DNA of 64,000 nt, taken from Tribonema minus (Eukaryota > Sar > Xanthophyceae > Tribonematales > Tribonemataceae). The notes beneath the pieces were generated by a model. That model worked only from the letters and a program-made list of their open reading frames with translations. It had not been told where the DNA came from and made no database searches. Location of the stretch: contig JAFCMP010000050.1 of the NCBI GenBank assembly GCA_017506865.1, forward strand, positions 310,001 to 374,000, read 5' to 3'. Of the stretch, positions 39,970 through 49,098 are shown in pieces (the first letter of the stretch is position 1; each line of letters opens with the position of its first letter). Both the position numbers and the translations under genes were made by a program.

Positions 39970-42524
39970 TTACTGCAAGTGTTGCGGGCGGCCACCATGC
40001 ACACGCCAGCTGTGCAAGCCTCCCATTGCAAGCTTGCCCTCAGAAGGTTCCGGCACTGCAGGTTGTAGCATGCTGCGCAGGCGTCGGTACACTAGCTCGG
40101 TCATGACCCTGCGTCTAGTGGCTTTTCTACTGTCACCAACTGCAAAGCGCAGTCGGACCACATGTGGGAAGTAAACGCAGCAGCAGCATGCACTGAGCAC
40201 ACCTGAACCTGACAGGCGCAGGCGGACAACTCTTGAACGCTGCATCCAACAAGAATGACAAGGCGGTGCTGACAATGTCAAATTTGCAGTACTTCTTTGC
40301 CTTTGCCAATGTGTTGTTGCATTGCACAGCAGTGCGAATGCTGCAATCGAATGTATGCGGCATGATGATGTCATTGTCTGCATCATGTCAGCAACAACGC
40401 AACCAAAATAACTGAGAGCGGAGTCAGGCTTGCTCAGTCAACATGTCAGCATTGTCATTTGTCAGTCTTCATGCATGGCGTCAAGTGCAACAACAACCGC
40501 ATGCCAAGCCAGTGCCTCCCCGACTCTCACCAGACCGCTCGCTACTTGCGTGTCTGGTGCTACTACCACTTTGCCGCCACCGACCACACCCTTGCTATTA
40601 CTCTCTAAAGGGTGATCATTCCAACCCTGCATGATGTCACCCATGCTCAAAATATCTGTAGGTGCAACACCCAAAGACCGCAGTTTGCGGTTGGCATAGC
40701 GCCTGACATAGCCCTTGCCACTGCCGTCACGCAGCGCTGGCGCAGCTGTGCTTGCCCTGTGCAGCGCACTGCCTGAAGACCCGCGCTCTCGCAGCAAGGG
40801 CAGCACAGTCGCGCTGAGCCACTGGGTCGCCTGTGCTACTGCTGACGGTGGTGCTGCTGCACCCTCGCCGTTGCAAGTATGCGCGTCGCCGCTCCAGTTG
40901 AAGTAGATAGACAAGTCCAACTTCCTCGTGTTGGAGTCGGCCGATGGCAGTGGGAGCTCAATGGTACCGTCAAGTGGCAGCAGGTCTTGTTGGCGAAAGA
41001 GTTGAAGCCCTTCTGCATACCCAAAGGAGAAGAGCTTCTTTGCCGTGGTCATGGCTGCGCCGTATGTGCCAAAGACCTGTGCGCCTGCTGCGTACTTCCT
41101 GTCTGTGGTAAATACCACTTCCTGTGGAGGCACATGCAGAAGCACATCGGAGGAGCAAGCTCAGGACCCAAGTGTTGGCAGTGCCGAGGCTGGTCATTCA
41201 AATTGCTCATCGTACTGGAGCAGCATTGCAGTGACGCGTGCAGCATGCTGCAGCCACCTGCAACATTCATAGTGACGACACAGCATAAGCAACCCGGATT
41301 GCTGCATTTGCAGAAGGGTCACACTGTGAGTGAAACTGGCAGCTTGCTTGATGCCACTGCTCAGGCGTCGAGTGGCTGCTTGCATGATGGTCAAGGATGC
41401 ATGCATGATGGGCACGGGTGCATGATTCGACCACAACACCTGCCAGATCCCCTTGAGATGTTTCTTGCAATCACCCTGAGTTGATGCTACAAGCATGCGT
41501 GTGCACTGCAGGAATACAGTTGCTGCGTCATTTGCTCGCATATGTCTTGCAGTATGACCAACTCCGCCACCTCCTCTGCGGTACCAGCAATGTCATGCCA
41601 GGTTGCCTCTTGTGCAACAACCGCACTGCACTACTCTAATGAGCACACGCCGCTTTGCCCTCTCACCTCCCGAGACGCAAACACGCCATCGCCCCTCTCC
41701 ACCCCGAACGCGACGCCGTCGCTGTGGTTGCAGAAGTCCACCAGTGGCACCAGCGCATACGTGCCATCCGCAAACATGAAGGCACGGCTCATCACCGCGC
41801 AGCGCGCCCACGCCCACTGCCGCGCCGTTAAACCGTTTCGTAACCGCCGCCTGAGCGCAGCGCTGCCAACGTGGGGCAGCGCCGCGCGCACGGCTTGGAA
41901 CTCCTGCTGCAGACGCGCGCGAAACGCTGCGGTGTCCGCGGCTAGTAGGGTGCGGCGGAGCAGCTGCCGATCGCCGCGGGGCCACAGCACCGGCAGGTTG
42001 AGCTCTGCTGCCGACGGCAGCGCTGCGATGTACGGCGCGTAGAACGAGCGGCCGCCAAGGCACACTTCGACGGCGAGCTTGAGAGCAACCGTGGCCTGTC
42101 GCCAGTGTTCTGGCGGCGCGCGCGCAAATACGGCGTGCGCCCACCGCTGGTGTGATGCGTTATTTGCGCAGCCGCTGCTGCCGGTGGCGCTGCTGCCGGC
42201 GCCGCTCGTGAAGCATATGGCGAGGGGGATGGAAGCGACGGTTGCTAGGCGTTCGAGATCACGTGCGGCGCGAAGTCCCACTCGCTGTTCAGGGAACGTG
42301 TCCAGAGCGATGGCTGCGCCGTTGCTGGTGCGTCCTCCTCCGAGATCCGCGCCGTTGTTCAGGAGCCACTGAGTCAGAGGCGCAAGCTGATACGCTGCGC
42401 CTTGCGATGGTGTGGCTGGCGTCAGGCACTGCACAAGTACTGGCAGTAACAGCGAGAGGATGCACCGCAGGAGGACATGCGTCCTGCTGACGGTGGTGGA
42501 GCTAGGGCGGCAGCACCCGTACAT
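39970..42524 (-). CDS. LSMT-type SET domain protein methyltransferase
   Basis: Proposed minus-strand exons 42524-41667, 41121-40641 and 40139-39970 give 502 residues. The family (Rubisco LSMT, SETD3, yeast Rkm) methylates lysines or histidines of Rubisco, actin or ribosomal proteins. Signatures are LTQWLLNNGADL, SIPLAICF, MSRAFMFADGTYALVPLVDFCNHSD (residues split here only by position), and AAGAQVFGTYG followed by KLFSFGYAEG, the SET end and start of the substrate-binding domain. The leader has a long hydrophobic run (VLLRCILSLLLPVLVQCL), suggesting a signal peptide. The last exon is less sure: without it the frame stays open to 40462. The putative start codon lies inside the 3' end of the DPH4 frame, so an unseen upstream exon is possible. 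Confidence 0.78.
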
Positions 42525-42918
42525 TGAGGCTACAGCCTGAACAGGGCACAACATTGAGGCCTTCCCGCAGCTCGTCCTGTGTAACTTCGTAGGCCTCGCC
42601 GCAGCGGCAGGGGTGCATCAGGACGCCGTCCTCGCACAGCTGCATGTCGCTCGCATTCACGTCCTCGCTGATGGTCGCATGTTTGCTGGCCGCTTCAAGG
42701 CGCTCGTCGTAGTCCGCGCGCCTTTCTGGATCTCTCAGCGTCTCCCAAGCCTCTTGCACTGCGCGAAAGGGGTCTAAGCGGCTGAAGTCGTCGGCTGTGC
42801 CGGTCGTGTTCGGGGAAGCTTTGTCGGGGTGCAGTTTGAGCGCCGCTTGCTGGTACGCACGCTTTACCTGCTCGAGACTGGCATTTCGAGGAATGCCTAG
42901 CAGATCGTATTTGTTCAT
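42502..42918 (-). CDS. DPH4: DPH4 (DNAJC24) diphthamide biosynthesis J-protein
   Basis: A single uninterrupted exon of 138 residues. It has an N-terminal J domain (YDLLGIPRNASLEQVKRAY, with HPD in LKLHPDKAS) and a C-terminal CSL zinc finger (HPCRCGEAYEV, then VVPCSGCSLNVRVL). This is the exact two-domain plan of DPH4, which supports the first step of diphthamide formation on eEF2 and can bind iron. All four zinc-ligand cysteines are present. Its last 23 bases overlap the apparent start of the SET gene on the same strand in another frame. The gene is intronless, unlike its neighbours. Confidence 0.93.
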   Translation of the reverse strand: MNKYDLLGIPRNASLEQVKRAYQQAALKLHPDKASPNTTGTADDFSRLDPFRAVQEAWETLRDPERRADYDERLEAASKHATISEDVNASDMQLCEDGVLMHPCRCGEAYEVTQDELREGLNVVPCSGCSLNVRVLPP

Positions 42919-43270: not shown

Positions 43271-46200
43271 TTAACTGGCATCACCAAAGCCAAAGGAAAA
43301 TGCAGAGCCAGCATCCTCTTTCCAGTTCACAGACACTTGCATAGCTTTATCCTGTCCAGCCAAAGGCCCCTGCTTGTTGCTACAACCGCTTGCATCTTGC
43401 TCATCCAGGTAGAGAAATGCGGCTATGATGTACCTGGTGCCCTCCGTTATTGGGTCCCCACCTGGACAACACCAAATAACGCATGCACACACAATAAAGG
43501 CCCGTTGTTCCACTGCCAAAGAGATGGCTGTTTGCGCAAGCACATCAACTCACGTGGTGGGAACATTGAGATAAGCCACTGTCAGCATGTGGAGAGGTGC
43601 CGACATGCCAACAGCTCGAGTTCTACATCTACAATGGATGTCACATGGGCAGCATCCATTGGTGACTCAGAATACTAGTCTACACCTTTCCTAAGGGATA
43701 TCCTTTTCTGCCTTAAAGTGCCTTTGCAATGCTGACCTGTGATGGCGACTCATCTCAGCAGTGGGGCACTGAGCAGTACCTGGCCTGACGCGGGAGCCTG
43801 TGTTGAATGGTTCGCCATGTGATGAGCAGCACATGAAAGCCCCATGAGTGGGTATCATGTGGCGTCATCACAATCATCCTGGCTTTGAACTATACAAACT
43901 GTGTGAGACACCGCATGCACAGCCCTATCGGAAATCAACAAAGTGTGCACATCAGCCACCGTCTCTTGAGGCCCAGTTCCAGCGCCTGCGAGCGTCCCAG
44001 CACACAGCACACTCACATTCGCGTGCCCCTGCCAACAAACTAGCCCTACTTGGCACGACTTACCATGAATCAGGCCGCCTCTGAACGACACGTTCGCACG
44101 ACTCACCATGAATCAGGTCACCCTTGAACGACAAGACGTGCCCCGCCTCCGTCCGCAGCGCGCTGTCCAGATGCTGGAAGTACGTGCCCCCCCCCTCAAA
44201 CGCCCCCGCGCCGTTCAGCGCCACCGTCAGCGAGTGCGTGCTCTGGTCTGCGTGCAGCGGCAGGTGGCGCTGCGCCGCGTGCGAGTAGCGCACCACAAAG
44301 GCGTCGTGCACGTGCCACGAGTGCGCAGCGCGCGCGCGCGGCGCGAACTGCGCGCTCAGCAGCGGAAACAGGCGCTCGCGCAGCAGCGCGCAGAACCACG
44401 CGCGCAGGGCGGGCACGGCGTGCACTGGCAGGTCCGTCGTCGGCACCGCGTAGTGCCTGCGGTGGCGGTTTGCGGAGCGGTGAGGGCAGGTATGTAGGTA
44501 CGACACGCCAGGTTGAAACAGGGGTGCTGGGGGGTCTGCCGTGCATGACCTGCAGTGCAGGCTACGCGCGAGTGCCAGTGAGGCGCGCATGGTTTACATC
44601 TCACGCAGCTGCGCAAGAAGCGCTGGCATGGGCGGCTGTGTTCCCTCATTCATGGCGTATCTTGCGTGATGGACTCCGTCGCTCATTTGGACGTCAAAGG
44701 ACCGCAACTGCAACAGCACAGTGTGATGATGGTACGCCAGCAGTGCTCAAACAATAGCATTGCGCACGCACTGCTCGCTTGCCCTGTGAGCTGCTGCTCA
44801 CACACATGCGACGTCACGCAAACACATCAATTGACAGCACACCTGGAAGTGGTCCAGCCCTTGTGCTCCTGCGCATGCGCCTCAGCAGTCTCCACCGCCC
44901 ACGCGCACTCCTCCCCGCTGAGCACCGGCTCGCGCGTCAGAAACACCCCCCCATCAAAGTTCTCCCACACACACCCCACTCCTTCAGTCACCACACTCGC
45001 GCTGCCACCGCCGCTGTCGCCTGCGCTGGCCGCCGCATAGGCCGCGTCCTTTGCAGCCTGCGCTGCTAGCGCGGCATGCTCCGGTGCCAGCGCAAAACCC
45101 GCCTGCCACGCACGGTGCGCATCCGCCCAGCGGCCGCAGCCCAGCAGCGCCACCCCCACCCCGTGAAGCGCATCGCCCTGCACGCCCTTCTGTGCCGCTG
45201 GCGCTGCCGCCGCCGACTCAGCGGCAGCGCGATAGAGCTCCAGCGCGGCTGCGCAGCGCCCCTCCTCGAGCGCCTGGTTGGCCAACGCGAGCGTGTCATG
45301 CGGAGGCAGCGCGGACGCGTCGACCGTGCGCGACTCCACTGCGCAGCGTGCGCACGCACACTCGTACGCGGCGTCGCCCAGCGACGCCCGCAAGTCCGCG
45401 CGACGCTGCCGCCACGAGGGCTGCGCGACGCTCACGCGCGGCACCGTGAGCGCATCGCCGGCAACAATAGAACGCAGCGCCACCAGCTGCGCCCTGAGCT
45501 GGCCGCTGCGCGCGTCCCAGCAGCCCTCCAGCTGCGCGTTCGGGCAGCAGGCGTGCGGCGCGCGCGGCGCAGAGCGCGGCAGCAGCGCCAGCGCGCTCAG
45601 CGGGGGGAACGGCGACTGCGCGGGGTCAGCGGCCACCTGCGCGAGCAGCGCGACGCGCCTCTCTGATGCTTGCATAAGGACAGGGCCTTGGGCGTCGCTG
45701 GGAAGGTGCAGCTCGGGTGGCAGCACGGGAGCGAGCGCTCGCAGCGCCGCAATCTTGACGGTGCTGTCCGCTGTGAGCAGGCTCTGCGCGTACGCGACGA
45801 GGGGGGACTCCAGCTGCAGGGGTACGAGGCAGCGCTCGAGGCCCCCTGCAATCTTGGCGAATGTAATAGTGTTCAGAGGGGGGCTGAAACGACTCAAGTC
45901 GACCGCGTGCTCGTGCTGCAGCCAGGCTTGAAGGAGCGTCCACGCCTCCTCTACTTGCTGTTTGGCAGCGGCGGCATCGCTGGTGATGACGACATCCCAC
46001 CAGGGGGGTGCATTGCGCTGTAGCGCTTCAAATGTGTCGGTAGTGGCGGTTTCGCCCGCTGCTGCGCCGCAGACCATCCTGGCGACGACTTGCGCAGCGA
46101 AGAGGAAGGTCTCGCTGGTCTGCAAGGCGTAGCGGCGGTGCTCGCGGATGGCACTGCATGGCTCAGCAGACAAGTAAAGTGGGGGCGGTGTTGGGGTGTA

Positions 46201-47030
46201 GGTTGTCATGTTGAGCTGAGCTGGCTGACATGCATGGTCAACGTCAGCTGCAACATGCAGCAGTTGCGCCGCGCTCTCCGCCAGCATCAGGAAGAAATGG
46301 CAGTAGCGGATGATGGTCTGAGTGCGACGTGTAGCCGATGCCTTGCACGGTGTGTTGAACTTATGTACCTGAAACCATTCGCTGCTCTGATGACGCACTC
46401 GCAACAGCGCCCCACTGTTTTGACTTTGACTGCACTCATCTGGCACAATCATAGTGTAAGTTCACAGTCGATGAGTACATCAAATACTTCGAGACGAAAG
46501 TGGTACCTGTTTCTGCCTCGACCTCCGCAGCATAGCAGCTTATGACCTGCTGCCCAAGCAGCAGAGCGGCAGTCCTCCGAGCAGTAGAAATCATCACACG
46601 CACGCTCGCATCGCACGATCGCGCCGTTCTTACGGTCCCGAGGCTCGTGTGGCAGCTGGCACCGCTGATGTACGCCATGCTGCTTAGCTGCATCCACCCT
46701 GGGGCGTTTACGGCCCTTACTGGTTATTAGCTCTGCCTGCTCAGCCAGAGTTCCGATGAATGCATGGCAATGCTGGCAGGCCAATACCTGGTCGCGTGAC
46801 TGCAAAGTTTGGAAGGCAATTGCTGGGGTTGCAGACAGAATCACGCCGCCCTTGACAACATCATTGCTGGCTATCTGCTGTTGCATGTCGATGAAGCTGC
46901 GGCCTGCTGTGTAGGCCAACTTCAGGTCAACTTCAAGTAGTATCTTCAACTTTTGACAAATCTTCAACTTTTTACTGGCCGCAGGCGAAGGCGCGAGCTC
47001 GCCACCCGCGTATTTTAATTCTACCTTCAT
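43271..47030 (-). CDS. Fusion of SMYD (MYND-SET-TPR) methyltransferase with prolyl 4-hydroxylase
   Basis: Minus-strand exons 47030-46507, 46153-44843, 44456-44107 and 43461-43271 join in phase to 791 residues. Residues 41-82 are the first SET half. The MYND zinc finger spans 85-167 (CQHC ... CERACDDFYCSEDC ... GHKLLC). The SET core follows (TSETFLFAAQVVARM, then HACCPN at about 375 and post-SET CACARC near 440). An Ala-rich TPR-like helical part covers about 450-550. Residues 595-747 form a 2-oxoglutarate/Fe(II) prolyl 4-hydroxylase: WTTSRHYAVPTTDLPV, LPLHADQ (H680, D682), FEGGGTYF, LIHGGDPITEGTRYIIAAFLY (H728, R738). All metal and 2OG ligands are kept. The phase match AG|G at exon 2-3, in the middle of a conserved P4H motif, makes this one gene and not two. 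The usual NHSC of SET is changed to PHACC, which could lower activity. Substrates are unknown. Confidence 0.88.
44056..44141. repeat. 43-bp duplication of the P4H exon-3 end and splice donor
   Basis: CGACTTACCATGAATCAGG at 44056 repeats as CGACTCACCATGAATCAGG at 44099, both followed by a related CTTGAACGACA stretch. On the minus strand both copies read CATG/GTGAGT or CATG/GTAAGT, so both could serve as 5' splice sites. Confidence 0.85.
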
Positions 47031-47220: not shown

Positions 47221-49098
47221 ATGTCGAGGTGCGGCGCATCCGTGTTGAGCCTTAAAAGCGTGGCTTTGAGCACAAGCGCGTTGGTGGCAATACTGCTGGT
47301 GGTTTACCACATTGGCGTCGAGGACTCGGAGTCTCGCAAGTATCTGGAGACTATCTGGCCTCGCGCCAGTCTGGTAAGCACACTTGACGGTGACGGCATA
47401 GCCCGCGATGTGCCACCGTTTTACCAGCCCAACTTTCGGCCAGAGGGGAAAGCTGATGCCCGGCTAGTGTTCACCGAGGAAGTACAGAATGACATCTGGC
47501 AGCACCAGAATCCCTCATCCTGTGAAGGACAGCAGTACCTGCAGCTGCTCCCACATAACGACGGCGGCTTGGGCTCCCTGTTGCATGTCGCAACTGTTGC
47601 CCTGGCGTGCGCTATGCAGCAAAACGCCATCCTGGTATATCATGCGGATTACGGTGCCAGGTTCAGTCATGGCAGCTTCTGTGCGCCTGACAGCAGTAAT
47701 TTGGATTGCTTTTTCATGCCGGTGTCCAACTGCTCGGCCTATGTGGCAGATTCGAACCTGACGCAGCTGCCGATACCGTTGGTCCGCAAACGGCGCCTTG
47801 AGGTGCCCGAGAAGTGGCGACAGCGGTGGGCGGAGACGCGGCAGACAGCGGACCTCCTGTACTGGTGGCGCGCACAGGCGGTCTCGTATGTCGCACGCTT
47901 GAACCCGCCGACGTCGCGCGAACTCATCACCCGCAGACTAGCTCACGCCGCTGCAGGTACCGCGCCGCTGCCGCTGCCTGATGATACGGTGTCGATGCAT
48001 GTGAGGCATGGCGACAAGGCTTTTGAGATGGTGCTGCGGTCATGGCAAGAGCACAGAACACGCGCTGACGAGCTGGCAATGGCACGCCATTTCGAGGGGC
48101 GCACCTTGTTTTTGTCGACCGAGGATCCGGAGGTGGTGACGGAGGCGCGTGCGGATGGGACGTGGGACATACTAGTGCTGCCATACAGCCGTGAGAACTG
48201 GATCTTAAAGCGGATGTAGGCGCTGGGGGTAAGAGCACACCGCTTTGTTGTTTGCTGCCATGCTGTGTTCACAGCTCCAGCTGTCTTCCCATTGGCTGCT
48301 GCACGCAGCAAATGGCGAACTTCTGCTGTTCAGATGAAGGTGCCACTTGAATGCAGATCTGCCTCAAAATGCCTTCCGAACCCCGGCATCCCTGCTCCTC
48401 TGTGCACTGATAGCCCGAGACACCGCGTGCTAGCATTTGTATCATGCAGCGGTCACATCAGATTCTGTTGACTTTCGTCACAATGTTTTCAATGACTCAA
48501 TTTCAGCATTAAGCAGCAGTGTGCCGTGTCTCTGATGTATGCAGTGCCGGCGCCCGAACTGGCTCAAAATTTGGCCTTGCTAGGCTTCATGCACGGCGGT
48601 CGTGGCACACGATGCAACCCATAACCATGCACCGTATCATTCAACTTGGACTTGAAGTTGCATCTTGTCACGGGAAATCCACTGCAGCTTTCAAGATGTC
48701 TTGCTTTCGTGCGCACTGCATTGTCTTGCATTTTTGCACGCTGCTTTGTCCAAGACTTGCATTTGTGCACTTTGCTACTGCCTAGATCCTAGAACCTTTT
48801 GATTGTATCGTGAATGACACTTGCTGATCATCCTCCCCCCCCCCCCCCCCCCCCCCCCTCCCCTTCCCGCCAGGATGATCTGATCCTATTTTCATTGGAA
48901 AATTTGCTGCTCGCACTGGAAGCAACACATTTCGTCGGTTCACGGGGCTCAAACTGGAATCGGTTAATAGATGAACTGCGCATGTTGTGGCCAGGTGATC
49001 TCAAGAGCTGCTGCGCCCCTTATGCTGAGGTAGGTTGCAATCCACCGCAGCACTTGGAAGACAGTCAGGCAACGTGCGACACATTTGACAACTGGTGA
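47221..49098 (+). CDS. GT23/FUT8-like alpha-1,6-fucosyltransferase with in-frame TAG
   Basis: Exon 1 encodes a type II membrane enzyme: residues 12-30 are a membrane anchor, then a stem and a GT23 fold with NDGGLGSLLHVATVALA, SMHVRHGDKAFEM (GDP-fucose site, HVRxxDK) and LFLSTEDPEVV. The frame closes with TAG at 48217-48219. Three codons later a strong donor (GGG/GTAAGA, exon end 48228) pairs in phase 0 with an acceptor at 48873 after a long C-run. The second exon, 48874-49098, supplies the conserved GT23 end: LILFSLENLLLALEATHFVG and SNWNRLIDELR. So the natural product appears to need read-through of one stop, or the allele is null, or the base call is wrong. TAG ends other genes here, so a changed code is unlikely. 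Core fucosylation in the Golgi is the family role. Confidence 0.75.
48833..48863. repeat. Long C-run before the FUT8-like exon 2 acceptor
   Basis: About 25-30 consecutive C residues form an extreme polypyrimidine tract ending in GCCAG. Shorter C-runs precede other acceptors at about 1037, 25914 and 32275. Length is error-prone in sequencing. Confidence 0.8.

Follow-up and report, generated by a model that had tools for sequence, protein, structure and literature searches.

A predicted single gene of Tribonema minus joins a probably inactive SMYD module to a lysyl-hydroxylase-type oxygenase

The window analyzed here is a stretch of 64,000 nucleotides (nt) from Tribonema minus (contig JAFCMP010000050.1, positions 310,001 to 374,000 of the forward strand; coordinates below are counted from its first letter). 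At 47030-43271 on its minus strand lies a predicted gene for a protein of 791 amino acids, with the layout of a SMYD protein in its first half and an Fe(II)/2-oxoglutarate (2OG) oxygenase at its C-terminal end. Splice-site enumeration and assembly gave four exons running from ATG to TAA, with GT-AG borders at all introns, matching phases, and no internal stop in the 791 codons; the single gene with four phased exons that an earlier note had described was thus borne out as a gene model. Exon 1 (47030-46507, amino acids 1 to 175; all features of the gene are on the minus strand) encodes a degenerate N-SET, the first Cys pair of a MYND zinc finger, an insert, and the rest of the MYND finger, and it ends at the donor GTACCA at 46506. 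Exon 2 (46153-44843, amino acids 175 to 612) is one open frame for the I-SET, C-SET, and post-SET parts, a tetratricopeptide repeat (TPR)-like region, a linker, and the start of the oxygenase. The oxygenase core follows in exon 3 (44456-44107, amino acids 612 to 729), with the HAD iron motif at 44254-44246, FEGGGTYF, and the distal His at 44110-44108, and exon 4 (43461-43271, amino acids 729 to 791) completes the oxygenase, including the 2OG-binding Arg (43435-43433), and adds a tail and the TAA stop.

Donor 46506 could be paired with seven in-frame acceptors for intron 1 (46506-46154, 353 nt), and 46154 was chosen because exon 1 is then joined to AIREHRRYALQTSETFLFAAQVVA, a stretch that aligns with a SMYD paralogue encoded elsewhere in the genome; the other in-frame acceptors only introduce extra residues at the AIREHRRYALQTSETFLFAAQVVA junction. 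An acceptor at 46369 was out of frame and was rejected. Intron 2 (44842-44457) is 386 nt long, and intron 3 (44106-43462, 645 nt) begins with the donor GTGAGT. A second donor, GTAAGT at 44059, lies 47 bp further on; it was checked together with the 46369 acceptor and was likewise rejected as out of frame, the exon length differing by 47 from that obtained with the chosen donor. In the segment at 44040-44140, the end of exon 3 recurs as a near-duplicate that carries this out-of-frame donor. The given frame of exon 2 is open over its 1,311 nt, with 7 and 8 stops in the two alternative frames of that strand. Among 5,000 Markov sequences matched to it in dinucleotide transitions, 3 were equally free of stops in this frame (9 of 5,000 if any frame was counted). 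Codon-position bias was present in exons 2 and 3.

Both halves appear to form one protein. A single uninterrupted exon encodes the last SMYD parts, the TPR-like region, and the opening section of the oxygenase domain (44982-44843, amino acids 566 to 612), and the exon 2/3 join falls inside the motif WTTSR/HYAVPTTD (slash, join), which viral homologues keep in one frame. These homologues came from a search of viral contigs with A1, an alignment of the window oxygenase with a fragment of human LH3, and the best 80 of 99 relatives were used. The exon join corresponds to query residue 46/47, and in 56 of the 80 loci the match starts ahead of it, at residue 12 or 19. W...RH was found at the join position in a single frame in 58 of 80 viral open reading frames (ORFs), and the full WT..RH...PT.D, again in a single frame, in 40 (32 distinct). 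Among the 40 ORFs lacking the full motif, 18 were close relatives, the seven inspected reading WT..RH..YPATD, while in the remaining 22 (L086 to L107) the match was restricted to the later part of the domain. Since the window reads WTTSR/HYAVPTTD across the join, exon 2 very probably does continue into exon 3. The join had previously been placed in a conserved prolyl 4-hydroxylase (P4H) motif; its conservation was seen in the viral homologues, but the oxygenase, judged by its sequence, is no P4H.

We also considered that the locus might hold two genes, the first comprising the SMYD and TPR parts and terminating within or beyond exon 2, the second coding for the oxygenase and beginning upstream of exon 3. 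An open frame upstream of exon 3 with an in-frame ATG near 44.59 kb is compatible with such an arrangement, as is the single TGTAA in intron 2 (44598-44594), at which a shorter transcript could end. TGTAA would be a candidate poly(A) signal if the host were a green alga; another copy lies downstream of the stop (43163-43159), and the window shows no enrichment of TGTAA. The conserved start of the oxygenase (PVLSGEEC...GWTTSR), however, is located in exon 2, in frame with the SET and TPR-like parts, and the join restores a motif that is unbroken in the viral homologues. Because of the shared exon and the position of the join inside the motif, separate SET and oxygenase genes are disfavored, and we regard them as very unlikely; at the level of the gene model, the data support a single gene in which SMYD and oxygenase parts are fused.

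The SMYD half keeps its layout and has lost residues of its catalytic site. The MYND finger (46781-46530) has a long insert between its first Cys pair (46781-46767) and the rest (46616-46530); its cysteines and His line up with those of the paralogue, and the SMYD order, with the finger inserted in the SET domain, is kept. The post-SET cysteines (45366-45343) read YECACARC, compared with FACDCARC in the paralogue, so that the zinc ligands of both MYND and post-SET are retained. The SET site NHSCxPN (45558-45538), in contrast, reads PHACCPN in an alignment with the paralogue, SMYD2, and SMYD3, with the Asn lost and the His and Cys kept, and the catalytic Tyr is lost at 45459-45430, where GDALTVPRVS stands in place of the paralogue's GEEL..SYID. 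Pro at the Asn position and Arg at the Tyr position were obtained with both MAFFT modes in the four-way alignment with the paralogue and the SMYD3 and SMYD2 fragments. The register of NHSC is that of the four-way and structure-relative alignments; the pairwise alignment with the paralogue places the site otherwise than the motifs suggest. At the second aromatic position (Y257 of SMYD3), the window protein has no Tyr either, and the GxG of N-SET probably reads GRS (AGRSF, compared with RGRGL in the paralogue). No Pfam SET match was found in the window protein at a limit of E 10 (the filters drop most matches above 0.1), and a comparison of the SMYD half with solved structures gave one match, SMYD2, with an E value of 0.75. 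Loss of Y239 is reported to abolish the activity of SMYD3, and substitutions of G15, G17, and H206 to abrogate it, in the portion of PMC3136521 that deals with these residues, and a passage of PMC11369092 describes SMYD5 Y351A as inactive. Given the loss of SET catalytic residues and the need for the Tyr in SMYD3 and SMYD5, the SET part is probably catalytically dead, a pseudo-methyltransferase that may still fold. The designation as a SMYD lysine methyltransferase in the earlier note is therefore not upheld.

A search of the organism's own genome uncovered a second SMYD locus, on C101, with no oxygenase match. Its gene was assembled by script; ten acceptors fit the fourth exon, and the one yielding 492 amino acids was taken. 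As assembled, the paralogue matches Pfam SET (1.3e-11) and SMYD3 (8.1e-9), retains GRG, NHSCDP, and SYID, and ends shortly past the post-SET. The SMYD part of the window protein (amino acids 61 to 456) aligned to it with 103 bits and identity in 121 of 465 columns, whereas none of 200 shuffles scored above 29.6 bits, and the two loci were reciprocal best matches outside their own loci (reverse search E 7.8e-11). Short partial repeats of the paralogue's exons were seen at C101:164060-165013, three between exons 2 and 3 and one past exon 3. With exon 2 used as a DNA query, the sole match in the genome was exon 2 itself.

The TPR-like region (45300-45037, amino acids 460 to 547) gave weak TPR_2 and TPR_14 matches below the cut-off (E 0.049 and 0.083 for TPR_2), and no PDB sequence match was found for it up to E 0.01. 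In the predicted model, helices occupy about amino acids 456 to 535 with a mean predicted local distance difference test (pLDDT) score of 72 to 83. The TPR-like helices previously described thus find an echo in weak profile matches and a helical model, with all scores below cut-off, and are weakly supported.

The ligands of the oxygenase half are complete: HxD, the distal His, and the 2OG-binding Arg are all in place, as had been noted before, with a His-Arg spacing of 10 residues. This spacing equals that of His719 and Arg729 in LH3, whose ligands are listed as His667, Asp669, His719, and Arg729 in the relevant section of PMC6082870. In a phmmer search of the PDB, the window oxygenase gave E values of 7.4e-10 for LH3/PLOD3, 8.3e-7 for mimivirus L230, and 0.46 for P4H; LH3 and L230 again came out on top when the oxygenase core was used alone. 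PDB entry 6ax6 is presumably mimivirus L230. A profile of exon 3 and 16 viral relatives sharpened the difference (LH3, 7.4e-33; P4H, 4.4e-4). A hidden Markov model contrast was discounted: its lysyl-hydroxylase model was built from loci recruited by means of the window oxygenase, and three of its five comparators from the organism's own genome (L002, L003, and L005) were apparently in the wrong frame. By sequence, the oxygenase belongs with the lysyl hydroxylases LH3 and L230 and not with the P4Hs, and the previous label of prolyl 4-hydroxylase is not borne out.

The human LH3 fragment matched exon 3 at E 2e-5 in the 158-Mb assembly and one other place at 2.69; that place aside, the window oxygenase is the only such domain found with this query, in a search that runs exon by exon and could therefore miss a heavily split second copy. 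The general 2OG family PF13640 matched five other places in the genome, none of which was retrieved up to E 10 with the window oxygenase as the query. A search of a collection of genome contigs with A1 gave 32 pattern matches, 0 of them confirmed. The OGFOD2-like family PF25238 matched neither the window protein nor the genome, where the controls were equally silent; it did match all four viral relatives that were scanned, three of them over the cut-off. Two of these four carry GT25 and two carry GT4-type domains, and L034, L040, and L065 are environmental viral fusions of GT25 and/or GT4-type domains to the same oxygenase family, as LH3 is joined to transferase domains. No SMYD or TPR part was matched in the 80 viral loci (tblastn, E 0.1), and searches of viral contigs with a single 2OG domain or a DNA motif returned nothing.

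A bare domain list would suggest one enzyme that places paired methyl and prolyl-hydroxyl marks, as the earlier note had proposed; its SMYD methyltransferase would be active, and its prolyl 4-hydroxylase would act on the same or nearby sites. The MYND finger, the split-SET layout, and the full set of 2OG-oxygenase ligands are in keeping with such a bifunctional enzyme. The SET Asn and Tyr, however, are gone and no Pfam SET match was found, unlike in the paralogue, and the oxygenase is nearer to lysyl hydroxylases than to P4Hs. Because of the lost SET residues and the lysyl-hydroxylase kinship, we reject the paired marks, a functional guess that is corrected here, and consider a bifunctional enzyme highly improbable.

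We favor instead a dead SMYD scaffold joined to a PLOD-type oxygenase and acting as a targeted protein oxygenase, a reading to which, taken as a whole, we assign a probability of roughly 0.55. A duplicated SMYD gene, SMYD5-like by its anatomy, would have lost its methyl-transfer chemistry while keeping the zinc-binding MYND/post-SET scaffold, which would then have been linked through the TPR-like linker to an Fe(II)/2OG oxygenase of the PLOD type with all ligands intact. A client would be bound, and the target thereby chosen, by the dead SMYD module together with the TPR-like region, and the oxygenase would use Fe(II), O2, and 2-oxoglutarate to oxidize the client, most likely at lysine; the protein is most likely a protein oxygenase, probably lysine-directed. 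The insert in exon 1 carries a basic stretch, KGRKRPRVD, which by inspection resembles a nuclear localization signal, and no signal peptide is obvious. The protein is therefore probably cytosolic or nuclear rather than on a collagen-type secretory path, and it is probably soluble and possibly nuclear.

Several points weigh against this reading. On the SMYD side, MYND PF01753 scored E 0.00011 and 22.6 bits in exon 1, just under the Pfam cut-off of 22.7 (19.7 bits in the whole protein). The GRS reading in N-SET depends on a single pairwise alignment, and the SET His and Cys are retained. The predicted model of exon 2 alone had a mean pLDDT of 47.6, its fold being usable at the TPR-like stretch only, and that of exon 3 with 16 viral relatives had a pLDDT of 45.6 and no usable fold. 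No Pfam 2OG family matched the window oxygenase at a limit of E 10, and its other profile matches were to PHROG 61, a general phage 2OG family (1.8e-12), to families labeled DNA endonuclease (PHROG 2297 at 6.8e-9 and another at 9.8e-4), and, far under the cut-off, to a PKHD-type dioxygenase (NCBIfam, 0.0011). Homology to PLOD is no proof of lysine as the substrate, and OGFOD2-like proteins are, to our knowledge, catalytically undefined. To these are added the TGTAA in intron 2, the weak codon-position bias of exons 1 and 4, and a decayed partial SET-TPR copy at C48:353901-354107 (L020, 5405-5608; 46% identity over 69 residues, with stops), the stops in which indicate that one copy of the window gene has decayed.

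The last two of these points, along with the loss of the SET active site, would fit a decaying fusion, in which the whole gene drifts without an enzymatic role. Nevertheless, the iron and 2OG ligands of the oxygenase remain in place, as do the residues that bind zinc in MYND and post-SET, the 791 codons contain no stop, and codon-position bias is present in exons 2 and 3; we find general decay unlikely. In another alternative, the oxygenase would strip the methyl groups set by the paralogue by hydroxylating methyl-lysine, using the common target-binding scaffold. In a bolder reading, the dead methyltransferase would aim a lysine oxygenase that counteracts or undoes the mark of the intact paralogue, with hydroxylysine or demethylation opposing methyl-lysine at the same residue. 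The intact SMYD paralogue in the genome speaks for such an eraser, while no PLOD-type enzyme is known to act as a demethylase. According to PMC7368280, the reduction of H3K36me3 requires the plant 2OG oxygenase ICU11, its direct activity not being reproducible; ICU11 is a loose parallel. An eraser and the bolder reading both seem unlikely; if the latter were true, a writer and its counter-writer would descend from one ancestral gene.

A targeted oxygenase, as we favor, would mean that a protein-methylation scaffold has been reused to steer oxidation and that a lysyl-hydroxylase-type domain operates in an apparently soluble setting that has nothing to do with collagen. Since an intact paralogue is encoded in this genome too, there is a handle on whether both proteins share a target lysine.

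With PLOD/lysyl hydroxylases (human LH3 and L230), its closest solved relatives, the window oxygenase shares the HxD, distal His, Arg, FVVRY, and EGGG; unlike them, the window protein has no glycosyltransferase domain in Pfam scans and, by inspection, lacks an obvious signal peptide. Where LH3 has Cys691, the window oxygenase and the 17 viral relatives aligned have Thr. Viral OGFOD2-like/PLOD-like proteins (IMG/VR) have the oxygenase and the motif spanning the exon join in common with the window protein and gave no SMYD/TPR match in the 80 loci at E 0.1. EGLN1/PHD2, the HIF prolyl hydroxylase, combines a MYND finger with a 2OG oxygenase and contains neither SET nor TPR; the likeness lies in the MYND finger joined to a 2OG oxygenase, and no PHD2-named chain was among the 12 PDB sequences matched by the window oxygenase. 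SMYD2 and SMYD3 share with the window protein the SET domain split by a MYND finger and the post-SET cysteines. Compared with SMYD enzymes, the catalytic Asn and Tyr are gone, as is probably the second Gly, and a C-terminal oxygenase has been added. The TPR-like region stands behind the post-SET, whereas the paralogue as assembled stops soon past it. The long MYND insert of the window protein and the paralogue fits the description of SMYD5 given in part of PMC3136521, a likeness by anatomy; a member of the SMYD5 subfamily would also be expected to lack a C-terminal helical domain, whereas the window protein has TPR-like helices past the post-SET. Among the matches listed in the open-licence PMC literature (titles and abstract openings), no SMYD-2OG oxygenase protein was described. 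The architecture thus consists of known domains, one of them apparently disarmed, in a combination without a known description, which may sit unremarked in eukaryotic databases.

The next gene downstream (42502-42918, minus strand) encodes a J domain (PF00226, 6.9e-19) and a CSL zinc finger (PF05207, 6.2e-14), a layout that we take to be that of the diphthamide factor DPH4. An open frame at 41631-42617 (minus strand) contains a SET-like VDFCNHS and looks Rubisco LSMT/SETD3-like by eye; it had no Pfam match up to E 0.01. On the other side, a divergent neighbor (47221-48219, plus strand) begins about 190 bp from the ATG and resembles alpha-1,6-fucosyltransferases (PF19745, E 9e-6, just under the cut-off); given this divergent orientation and short distance, a promoter region may be common to both genes.

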